64,000 bases of DNA, from assembly GCF_026967985.1 (NCBI RefSeq), contig NZ_JAPVBJ010000002.1, positions 124,001 through 188,000 of the forward strand. The letters are read 5' to 3'. The stretch is from Modestobacter sp. VKM Ac-2984. Lineage in GTDB: Bacteria; Actinomycetota; Actinomycetes; Mycobacteriales; Geodermatophilaceae. How positions within the stretch are numbered: position 1 is the stretch's first letter; every line of letters starts with the position of its first letter. The position numbers and the translations under genes were made by a program. Below, one piece after another: positions 22,669 to 46,472 of the stretch. The notes below the pieces were generated by a model that was given only the letters and a program-made list of their open reading frames with translations, did not search any database and was not told the DNA's origin.

Positions 22669-23064
22669 TCAGGTCGCGATGGTCACCAGCCGCTTGATCG
22701 CCAGCAGGGCCAGCGGGGCGTAGCCCAGCACGAGGGGGGCGAACCCGCTGATCCGCAGGCCGGTCGTCGTCCCGCCGTCCGGGGCCGGGTTCACCCAGTG
22801 CGCCAGCCGCAGCCGGGTCGGGCCGACGGTGACCTGCCAGCTCCACCACCGCGTCGCGTCGGAGACGCCGTCGACGATGAACGGGACGGAGGTGCGCAGC
22901 GGGTCGTGCACCCGACCGGTGACGCCCGGGGCGATCCGGGGAGCGGTGGCCTGCACCCGGCTGATCTGCGGGGACCACTCCGACCAGCGGGCTGGGTGCA
23001 CGAAGCGGTCCCACACCTCGTCCGGCTCGATCGGGCCGGTGGCGTGCAGGGTCAGTGTGGTCAC
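22669..23064 (-). CDS. SRPBCC family protein (START/Bet v1-like)
   Basis: A 131-residue protein with the compact SRPBCC layout: TLTLHATGPIEPDEVWDRFV at the N-terminus, ARWSEWSPQI, central TRWWSWQVTVG and a C-terminal hydrophobic helix APLALLAIKRLVTI. These domains bind hydrophobic ligands in a cavity; no catalytic residues can be assigned. The GTG start is weakly supported by a ribosome site. It heads away from the parS-like array upstream. Confidence 0.72.
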   Translation of the reverse strand: MTTLTLHATGPIEPDEVWDRFVHPARWSEWSPQISRVQATAPRIAPGVTGRVHDPLRTSVPFIVDGVSDATRWWSWQVTVGPTRLRLAHWVNPAPDGGTTTGLRISGFAPLVLGYAPLALLAIKRLVTIAT

Positions 23065-23195
23065 CGGGGACGGGTGCCCGCCCAGCTGCCGACTGACACC
23101 CGGGCGGGCTGATGGCCGGGGTCCGCCCCCGAGAGTGACCCAGGCCAGTCCATCCGCGCCGGACCATGATGCGCCCCACCCGCCCACCTCGCAGG

Positions 23196-23271
23196 TCCGG
23201 TCCCACGTGGCGGGTCGAGTTCCACATGGCGGGTCCGGCTCGACGCGGCGGGTCCGGTTCCACGTGGAACC
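23196..23271. repeat. Four tandem 19-bp units related to a parS-like palindrome
   Basis: Units at 23196-23214, 23215-23233, 23234-23252 and 23253-23271 align end to end. Each starts TCSRG and the first three end GGCGGG. The centres read CACGTGG, CACATGG, GACGCGG and CACGTGG. Only the last keeps both arms of the palindrome, so the first three look like decayed or half sites. The array lies in the non-coding gap between two divergent genes. Confidence 0.88.
23257..23270. promoter_or_regulatory. parS-like palindrome GTTCCACGTGGAAC, site 1
   Basis: A perfect 14-bp palindrome (16 bp with flanking G and C) resembling the actinobacterial ParB-binding site GTTTCACGTGAAAC with one symmetric T:A to C:G change in each arm. 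Identical 14-mers occur at 34208 and 46459. Presence near the division cluster supports a chromosome-segregation role (inference). Confidence 0.75.
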
Positions 23272-23311
23272 CCCGCGGACCACCGACCAGGCCGGGCGCG
23301 AGGATCGTGGC

Positions 23312-23851
23312 GTGTCCGGCCCCTCTCCCTCACCGGTCCTCCGCCCGATGACGGCGGGCGACTGGCCCGCCGTCCGCGCGATCCACGCCGCCGGCATCGC
23401 CACCGGTCTCGCCACCTTCGAGACCGAGCCGCCGAGCTGGGCGGCCTTCGACGCCTCGCGCCTGTCCGGTCACCGGCACGTGGCCACGGACGGCGCCGGC
23501 ACGGTCCTCGGCTGGGTGGCGTGCTCCCGCGAGTCGCCGCGGGCGGCCTACACCGGCGTGGTCGACCACTCGGTCTACGTCGCGCCGGACGCCGCCGGAC
23601 GCGGCATCGGGCGGCTGCTGCTGCAGGCACTGGTCGACTCGACCGAGGCCGACGGCATCTGGACCATCCGGGCGGCCGTCTTCCCGGCCAACACGGCCAG
23701 CCTCGCCCTGCACGAGCGGCTCGGGTTCCGGGTGGTCGGCCGCCGCGAACGGATCGGTCGCCGGGTCGTCGACGGGCGGTCGAGCTGGCACGACGTGCTG
23801 TTCCTCGAGCGCCGCAGCCGCGTGGTGGGCTGGGCGGACGACCCGGCCTGA
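23312..23851 (+). CDS. GNAT family N-acetyltransferase (phosphinothricin acetyltransferase-like)
   Basis: A 179-residue GNAT enzyme. It starts with the family pattern LRPMTAGDWPAVRAIHAAGI and has FETEPPSWAAFD, VDHSVYVAPDAAGRGIGRLL (acetyl-CoA pyrophosphate loop) and FPANTASLALHERLGFRVVG. This matches the Pat/MddA group that acetylates phosphinothricin or methionine-sulfone-type amino acids. The substrate is inferred from resemblance only. GTG is used as start; the ATG at 23348 would remove 12 residues. Confidence 0.88.
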   Translation: MSGPSPSPVLRPMTAGDWPAVRAIHAAGIATGLATFETEPPSWAAFDASRLSGHRHVATDGAGTVLGWVACSRESPRAAYTGVVDHSVYVAPDAAGRGIGRLLLQALVDSTEADGIWTIRAAVFPANTASLALHERLGFRVVGRRERIGRRVVDGRSSWHDVLFLERRSRVVGWADDPA

Positions 23852-26498: not shown

Positions 26499-28451
26499 CT
26501 ACCCGCGCACCCGCACCGCCAGCACCGCGACGTCGTCCTCCACCGGCCCCTCGAGCGCCGCGAGCAGCCGGTCGCACAGCTCCTCCAGCGGGAGGTGCGC
26601 CCACCGGGCGAGCTCGTCGGCCAGCCAGCCGATGCCGTCGTCCAGCACCGCACCCCGTCGCTCCACGAGCCCGTCGGTGTAGAGGACGACCGTCGAACCG
26701 GGCACCAGCAGCTGGACGTGGTCGCTGCGCAGGAAGGACGGGTCGACGCCCAGCAGCAGGTCCGGCGCGCGCTCCAGCACGGTGACCGTGCCGTCGGGGG
26801 CGATCAGCAGCGGTGGCGGGTGCCCCGCGTTGCTCCAGCGCAGCAGCCGGCCGCCGTCCTCGGCCTCCTCGACCGTGGCCAGGACGCCGGTGGCGAGGGT
26901 GGCCACCTGGAGGTCCTCCAGCGCCCGGTCCAGCGCGCCGAGCACCGCCCCGGGGGAGTCCCGGCGGCTGTGGGCGACCCCCCGCAGCACGTTGCGGACC
27001 TGGGCCATCGCCGCCGCGGCGTACCGGTCGTGCCCGGTGACGTCACCGATCACCAGCGCGAGCCGGCCGTCGCCCAGCAGGAAGGCGTCGTACCAGTCAC
27101 CGCCCACCTGGGCCAGCGTCGCGGCCGGCAGGTACCGGACGGCGACCTGGAGGTGCTCGGTCTCGGGCGGCTCGGTGAGCAGGCTGCGCTGCAGGGCCTC
27201 CGACATGCCCTCGACGACGGCGTGCTGGGCGCGCTCGTCGGCCCGGGCCCGGATCCGCTCGAGCGCCTGCGCCGACTGACCGGCCAGCGCGAGCAGGAGC
27301 TCGACGTCGCCCTGGTCCAGCACCGTCGGCCGCGTCCAGCCGACGCTCAGCGACCCGATCCGGCGGGAGCCGCTCTCCAGCGGCACCGCCGCCCAGGCCT
27401 GGACCCCGGTCTCCGCGGCCAGCCGGGCCAGCTGTGGGGAGAACTGCTCGGTGGCCGCCTGGTCGGGCAACAGCACCCGCGCCCCGGTGCGGGCTGCGAC
27501 GCAGCTGGGGTAGGGGGCGTCCAGGGAGAGCACCGTGTCCGGTCCGACCCCGACCGGGGCGATCCCGTCGGTGAGCACCAGCCGCAGGTTGTGCTCCCCG
27601 TCGCAGACCCCGATCGTGCCGCCGTGGGCGCCCAGCGCCACCAGGCCGCGCTCGTTCACCACCCGGGCGAGGTCGTCGAGGGTCTCGGCCCGGCCCAGGG
27701 CCAGGGCGACGCCGGAGAGGGCGGCCAGCCGGCGGGCCGCGTCGGCCTCGGCCTGCCGGGCGGCGCGCAGCTCGGCGCCGCGGGCGAACAGGTCGCTCTC
27801 CACCTCCAGCACCCGGCGGTGCCACCGCCGCCCCCGGCCGCTGGGGTGGTCGGACATCGCCTGCTGACGCACGTAGTCGGTGATGTCCTCCGCGCGCTGG
27901 AGCAGGTGCCGGCAGCGCCCGGTGTCGTCCAGCACAGGGACGCTGATCAAGCTCCAGAAGTGCTTGGTGAAGCCGCCGGACCCGTCCGGGATGTCGAACT
28001 CCTGGACCGGCAGGGTGTGCGGACGGCAGGTGTCCCGGGCCCGCTCGAGCGATGCGCGGATGCGGCTGGCGCCGTCGCTGGCGGTCGCATCGGGGTTGCC
28101 GGGGAAGGCCTCGAAGACCGGCCGCCCGATCAGCTCGTCGCGGGTCCGGCCGGTCGTGGCGAGGTAGGCCGGGTTCGCGTCGGCGATGACCAGCCCCGGC
28201 GTGAGCACCAGGTAGGGGGTGGGCATCGCGGCGAACAGCGCTGAGTGGTCGGGCGGCACCGGGTGGTCGGGCGGCACCGGGTGGTCGGGCGGCACCGGGT
28301 GGTCGGGCGGCACCGGGTGGTCCGGCAGTGCCGGGTGGTCCGGCAGTGCCGGGTGGTCCGGCAGTGCCGGGCGACCGCCGCCCGCGCCGGATCCGCCGGC
28401 TGGCCCCTCGGTGCCGGCCGGGTGGTCTGGCCCGTTCGCCCGCGCGCCCAC
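26499..28451 (-). CDS. PAS-GAF-SpoIIE PP2C protein phosphatase with hexapeptide-repeat N-terminus
   Basis: A 650-residue RsbU-like phosphatase. Residues about 27-69 are seven tandem hexapeptides, DHPALP-type then DHPVPP-type. A PAS domain follows (LFAAMPTPYLVLTPGLVIAD, about 70-195), then a GAF (about 240-400) and a SpoIIE/PP2C domain (about 420-645) with VGGDWYDAFLLG, LVIGDVTGHD and VLYTDGLVER. Catalytic metal residues look complete. It is the second PP2C in the window and shares the catalytic half pattern with the 6855 gene. No membrane segments. The GTG at 28451 includes the repeat; starts after the repeat are possible. Confidence 0.87.
   Translation of the reverse strand: MGARANGPDHPAGTEGPAGGSGAGGGRPALPDHPALPDHPALPDHPVPPDHPVPPDHPVPPDHPVPPDHSALFAAMPTPYLVLTPGLVIADANPAYLATTGRTRDELIGRPVFEAFPGNPDATASDGASRIRASLERARDTCRPHTLPVQEFDIPDGSGGFTKHFWSLISVPVLDDTGRCRHLLQRAEDITDYVRQQAMSDHPSGRGRRWHRRVLEVESDLFARGAELRAARQAEADAARRLAALSGVALALGRAETLDDLARVVNERGLVALGAHGGTIGVCDGEHNLRLVLTDGIAPVGVGPDTVLSLDAPYPSCVAARTGARVLLPDQAATEQFSPQLARLAAETGVQAWAAVPLESGSRRIGSLSVGWTRPTVLDQGDVELLLALAGQSAQALERIRARADERAQHAVVEGMSEALQRSLLTEPPETEHLQVAVRYLPAATLAQVGGDWYDAFLLGDGRLALVIGDVTGHDRYAAAAMAQVRNVLRGVAHSRRDSPGAVLGALDRALEDLQVATLATGVLATVEEAEDGGRLLRWSNAGHPPPLLIAPDGTVTVLERAPDLLLGVDPSFLRSDHVQLLVPGSTVVLYTDGLVERRGAVLDDGIGWLADELARWAHLPLEELCDRLLAALEGPVEDDVAVLAVRVRG
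28245..28370. repeat. Seven tandem 18-bp units in the PP2C gene
   Basis: Four exact copies of GTGGTCGGGCGGCACCGG (28245-28316) are followed by three exact copies of GTGGTCCGGCAGTGCCGG (28317-28370). They lie in frame near the 5' end of the minus-strand phosphatase gene, coding Pro-rich hexapeptides. Perfect identity within each subtype indicates recent expansion. Confidence 0.96.
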
Positions 28452-34204: not shown

Positions 34205-34227
34205 CGGGTTCCACGTGGAACCCGTCA
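34202..34227. promoter_or_regulatory. 26-bp perfect palindrome containing parS-like site 2
   Basis: The sequence is its own reverse complement over all 26 bases, with GTTCCACGTGGAAC in the middle (34208-34221). The outer TGA and TCA are the stop codons of the two convergent genes. It may serve as a ParB site and also form a bidirectional terminator hairpin. Confidence 0.8.
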
Positions 34228-46458: not shown

Positions 46459-46472
46459 GTTCCACGTGGAAC
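46459..46472. promoter_or_regulatory. parS-like palindrome GTTCCACGTGGAAC, site 3
   Basis: An exact copy of the 14-mer found at 23257 and 34208. It lies in the divergent gap between the epimerase gene and the DUF1707 gene, outside coding sequence. Confidence 0.75.

Follow-up and report, generated by a model that had tools for sequence, protein, structure and literature searches.

A chromosomal parS site beside a tandem tract of partial 19-bp copies in Modestobacter sp. VKM Ac-2984

The tandem centromere of the F plasmid, sopC, is built of head-to-tail ParB-site units, each of which keeps its palindrome. In chromosomal ParABS systems, about ten parS sites form an origin-proximal cluster, with parAB beside the origin. 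The 14-mer GTTCCACGTGGAAC is printed in papers on the parS sites of Pseudomonas and Myxococcus.

Clamp closure by ParB requires apposed half sites: the insertion of 1–8 bp between them abolished the stimulation of CTP hydrolysis, with ParB affinity for the spacer-modified parS about unchanged (PMC8494293, in the parts drawn on here, which do not cover arms lost by mutation). When nineteen ParBs were compared for binding to half-parS heptamers, six bound clearly, four weakly, and nine not at all, the last group including the proteins from S. coelicolor and C. glutamicum (PMC7022226, section 4). ParB from P. aeruginosa binds half-parS, with GTTCCAC as a main bound motif, and parS-like sites that carry two substitutions are bound as well (PMC10419367). 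The parts of PMC8367383 drawn on here contain nothing decisive. Among the matches listed in literature searches on tandem or degenerate parS and on parS in Geodermatophilaceae, no title or abstract opening was on point.

The locus described here lies in a 64,000-nucleotide stretch of DNA from Modestobacter sp. VKM Ac-2984, referred to below as the window. It comprises a true parS and a tandem tract of partial copies that was found in this genome alone, and, as judged from sequence, the tract is most likely functionless. With chromosomal parS it shares the identical 14-mer, the origin-proximal cluster of about ten sites, and parAB beside the origin, and it differs by three upstream 19-bp partial copies. 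The head-to-tail arrangement is also that of sopC, but here the palindrome is kept by only one of the four units.

The parS site and its tandem units

To place the palindrome in its genomic context, exact copies of GTTCCACGTGGAAC were sought across the window's own genome (4,557,465 bases in 21 contigs). All 10 were found on contig C12, between positions 119748 and 282238, and the reversed control pattern gave no match. Origin proximity was measured from dnaA (C12:202852–204582), which the sites flank on both sides, all at distances of no more than about 85 kb. The sole ParB match in the genome is found on the same contig (C12:210338–210871), with ParA encoded directly upstream, and both domains were confirmed by Pfam. 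Because all 10 copies cluster by dnaA and surround the single parAB locus detected in the genome, the exact 14-mer at 23257–23270 of the window is almost certainly a chromosomal parS, by sequence and by position. The original prediction had called this palindrome parS-like and had proposed counting its copies by distance to the origin; the identification is supported, and the clustering is the opposite of an even spread. Two more exact copies, both single, occur in the window at 34208–34221 and 46459–46472.

Sequences with one mismatch to GTTCCACGTGGAAC follow the same distribution, 13 of 15 being on C12 and 2 on C18 (binomial P 1.3e-9 given the share of the genome in C12). One variant, GTTTCACGTGGAAC, lies 35 bp before an exact parS, just upstream of parA. 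A parS pair spaced 35 bp apart immediately upstream of parA (C12:208849–208897; positions 1466–1514 of L006) has the same spacing in all four genomes compared. Another variant, GTTGCACGTGGAAC, is present in six copies, all on the origin contig C12 (256413 and 265846, both in L076, and 314081, 322840, 407983, and 415137); the copy at 256413 is found in four of the four genomes compared and that at 265846 in three. These copies are possibly weak ParB sites, or they may have been retained by coding.

The presumed functional parS ends a 19-bp array for which Tandem Repeats Finder (TRF) gave 3.9 copies at 23194–23267, with 76% matches, 0% indels, and a score of 99. Scores of at least 95 were reached in none of 40 randomized versions of the window generated by a third-order Markov model (highest score 94) but by 8 TRF rows in the real window, so that the array is non-random and a chance array can be ruled out, yet tandem repeats of this strength are not rare in the window. 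Random placement of 11 parS sites over 224 kb puts at least one inside a TRF array scoring 95 or higher with a probability of about 0.05, and the coincidence of a parS with a tandem array is thus in itself unremarkable. Elsewhere in the window, an 18-bp tandem repeat (28245–28362; 6.6 copies, 96% matches by TRF) sits within a minus-strand frame at 26499–28451, which by eye encodes a putative GAF/SpoIIE-like protein.

Four head-to-tail 19-bp units ending in a perfect palindrome had been predicted, and this description is accurate. The units span 23192–23267 on the forward strand, and their in-register 14-mers carry 4, 4, 6, and 0 mismatches to GTTCCACGTGGAAC. Unit 1 (CAGGTCCGGTCCCACGTGG, 23192–23210) has its in-register 14-mer at 23200, whereas in unit 2 (CGGGTCGAGTTCCACATGG, 23211–23229) the left heptamer GTTCCAC is intact and all 4 mismatches fall in the right half. 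Both halves are damaged in unit 3 (CGGGTCCGGCTCGACGCGG, 23230–23248), and unit 4 (CGGGTCCGGTTCCACGTGG, 23249–23267) continues into the intact right arm of the parS. Half-parS heptamers (GTTCCAC or GTTTCAC) were found in one of the three extra units, and in place of the more than one intact binding site that marks a tandem centromere, the array holds one. A 15-base unit pattern matched two places in the whole genome with 0 or 1 mismatch, both inside the array; 14 further places matched with two mismatches, giving totals of 16 for the genome and 16 for the reversed control. A dispersed repeat element was rejected on these counts, with close matches confined to the array and two-mismatch matches at control level.

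The array occupies an intergenic region (23065–23311) between divergent genes, and this region exceeds its counterpart in five relatives by 57 bp. On the minus strand, 22669–23064 encodes a small protein with a Polyketide_cyc2 domain (Pfam PF10604, E 1.3e-07), and on the plus strand, 23312–23851 encodes a GNAT acetyltransferase (Pfam PF00583, E 7.5e-15); the GTG start of each was picked by eye. A simple consensus scan of 23000–23400 returned no sigma-70-like promoter or terminator.

The locus in relatives and a proposed origin of the extra units

The corresponding region in relatives was found by a DNA search of 97 genomes, including the window's own (G000). In the five best matches (G001, G013, G018, G008, and G021), the corresponding intergenic region contains a single parS and is shorter by exactly 57 bp (3 × 19), so that the other three units of G000 are extra copies. 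The position of the parS is therefore conserved, with a single ortholog in all five relatives whose sequences were aligned over it. A comparison with related strains had been part of the original prediction, and it shows that the array is not shared, as all five carry a single unit. Among 29 loci from relatives, some of them cut by contig ends or matching the query in part only, 11 had one parS, 18 had none, and none had two. A period-19 pair pattern allowing up to two mismatches matched 3 of 112 family genomes, namely G000 and two others, and the control gave none; neither of the two other matches has a parS within 3 kb or a TRF repeat at the match. By this pattern, which is blind to more decayed arrays and to other periods, no 19-bp array was found in the other 111 family genomes. 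A scan of a genome-contig collection, which may omit the window's own genome, also returned no array of this type.

Over stretches of 200–224 kb, 11 parS sites were counted in G000, 12 each in G013 and G001, and 11 in G018, and among all of these only the array parS of G000 overlaps a TRF array scoring at least 50 or sits no more than 20 bp from one. The parS sites at G013:C1:284784 and G001:C2:280649 have no counterpart listed in the G000 or G018 stretches, which, on sequence comparison, suggests that closely related species have gained or lost parS sites.

As the simplest path to the present array, we infer that the 19 bp CAGGTCCGGTTCCACGTGG would have been tandemly duplicated in the G000 lineage, via replication slippage or unequal exchange, and that a single A-to-G change in the second copy would have been followed by amplification of that copy to give four units. 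The duplicated stretch would take in just the first four of the seven bases of the right arm, and only the last unit would thus have kept the original right arm, whereas the extra copies would never have held a complete parS. The final three bases of the right arm are CGG in all three extra units and AAC in the parS. The original prediction that the upstream units had lost one or both arms needs a correction, as with CGG in all three a full right arm was probably never there. For the same reason, the array is unlikely to be the remains of a former row of intact sites.

The divergence of the extra units is harder to reconcile with such a history. Within their 57 bp lie 7 further substitutions, whereas the 186 bp of flank have 1 that is private to G000 and 6 positions (3.2%) at which G000 and its nearest relative, G013, differ. 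Assuming 1.6% per site, the Poisson probability of the unit substitutions is about 5e-5, and assuming 5% it is 0.027. That the units are far more diverged than the flanks counts against a simple recent duplication; the true age of the array may exceed its apparent age, or the array may have been acquired by recombination or be fast-mutating.

The best surviving alternative, although a rather unlikely one, is accordingly an array, likewise functionless, that was present before the nearest relatives split off and has since shrunk to a single unit elsewhere, or that recombined in from an unsampled lineage. It would account for unit-to-unit divergence far above the between-species divergence of the flanks, and a collapse between units 1 and 4 would give back the exact single-unit sequence of the relatives. 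Since all five aligned relatives have a single unit and no array was detected in the other 111 family genomes (at up to two mismatches, a pattern that misses more decayed arrays), an older array would need several independent losses.

Close-packed parS in other genomes

Two parS-like sites separated by a short gap, though a wider one than in the Streptomyces pairs described below, were matched in 13 of the 22 other genomes of the genus, as pattern matches whose places are mostly unverified. With outer arms not required, a close-pair pattern was found in 18 of 296 genomes of the class, 16 of them from one genus, and G289 gave four cores in a row by the same pattern. A scan of the genome-contig collection for closer pairs, with periods of 15–23 bp, yielded at least 120 stretches (L110–L229), of which roughly three in four come from Streptomyces according to their titles. 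In these were 121 pairs of full 14-mers, with 19 bp the commonest period (33 pairs), which perhaps reflects the packing of two ParB dimers. Given the numbers from genus, class, and collection, the statement that ParB sites are normally single was too strong.

The pairs show little sign, as a whole, of recent tandem copying, since their spacers are barely more like their own flanks (0.37 and 0.36 of 720 bases matching) than like the flanks of other loci (0.33 and 0.31). For the 343 parS sites in L110–L229, the count of overlaps with TRF arrays scoring at least 50 was 91, which is mainly expected because paired 14-mers themselves form a repeat. A third in-register unit with up to 5 mismatches was found in 3 of 250 tests versus 9 of 2966 off-register, and 32 near-parS sequences were observed within 60 bp of a parS versus about 13 expected from random positions. 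Two of the three in-register cases come from Streptomyces (L149:1324–1400 and L173:4400–4476), where four-unit 21-bp arrays have three intact units and a third unit that has decayed in register; blastn gave no match between these two loci. In a different arrangement, ten parS sites occur within 3 kb of a Lachnospiraceae MAG (L211:2045–4960), nine of them GTTCCACGTGGAAC and one GTTCCACGTGAAAC, several about 200 bp apart.

The array studied here shares with the Streptomyces-dominated pairs its head-to-tail order and a period within 15–23 bp, at the value that is commonest there, and it shares with L149 and L173 a decayed member in register. It differs from the pairs in that their sites are intact and their spacers show little sign of copying, whereas here one unit in four is intact and the whole unit, spacer included, is repeated.

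Predicted ParB loading and the possible role of the extra units

The reading that we hold with good confidence is that of an ordinary origin-near parS with tandem-duplicated 19-bp partial copies that are neutral, ParB loading taking place at the intact palindrome alone. The site would be one of about 11 chromosomal parS centromere sites across roughly 160 kb around the origin. ParB dimers would be loaded as CTP clamps at its one intact palindrome, and these clamps would slide outward across the extra units just as across other DNA; the extra units would be neutral by-products that gathered substitutions. Both the loading of ParB at this parS and the lack of function in the extra units are extrapolated from described systems. 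Since half sites must be apposed for clamp closure, one loading site is probably left, with loading of ParB expected at the intact unit and not at the others.

Affinity for parS is about unchanged by spacers, and partial sites might therefore still be bound. By analogy with half-parS in P. aeruginosa, unit 2, and perhaps unit 1, could hold ParB weakly and not load it. The heptamer of unit 2 is a main half-parS motif of that species (PMC10419367), and 10 of the 19 ParBs compared bind half-parS at least weakly (PMC7022226); however, the half sites of P. aeruginosa are scattered genome-wide, only one of the three extra units has an intact heptamer, and half-site binding was absent for the S. coelicolor and C. 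glutamicum proteins (PMC7022226). We regard such retention as improbable. Marginally less probable still is that the extra units form a lineage-specific half-site tract that modulates the parS, for example by holding ParB dimers unclosed, for which the inhibition of the reaction by spacer-modified parS DNA (PMC8494293) offers an analogy. If such a tract were real, the fast divergence of the units would be a sign that selection disfavours additional loading sites next to an intact parS.

The original prediction suggested a platform for ParB spreading or loading, or the remains of one. On such a platform, tandem sites would increase local ParB density and clamp loading. Close-packed pairs in many Streptomyces, with the same 19-bp period commonest among them (33 of 121 pairs at no fewer than 120 loci), lend this idea some plausibility, but we consider it very improbable at this locus and rejected it on the mismatch counts, with three of the four units differing from parS at 4–6 of 14 positions, and on the absence of the array from five of five aligned relatives that retain the parS; non-apposed half sites, moreover, failed to catalyse clamp closure (PMC8494293). 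An operator array for a transcription factor of the divergent Polyketide_cyc2-domain and GNAT genes, suggested by the position between them, is scarcely credible and was set aside, as the same palindrome recurs at origin-clustered sites with unlike flanks and as L024, L025, L027, and L028 have a parS near the match, even though only the Polyketide_cyc2 portion of the query is matched there.

On its own, this finding leaves the understanding of ParABS unchanged. The array appears to be an instance of the birth and decay of parS sites, and the most notable feature is the fast divergence of its extra copies. With a single site in the relatives, four units here, and two mixed arrays in Streptomyces, it provides a small natural example of possible parS multiplication and decay. 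Together with its relatives, this genome also offers a natural comparison in which to ask whether the loading of ParB is affected by partial copies next to an intact parS.
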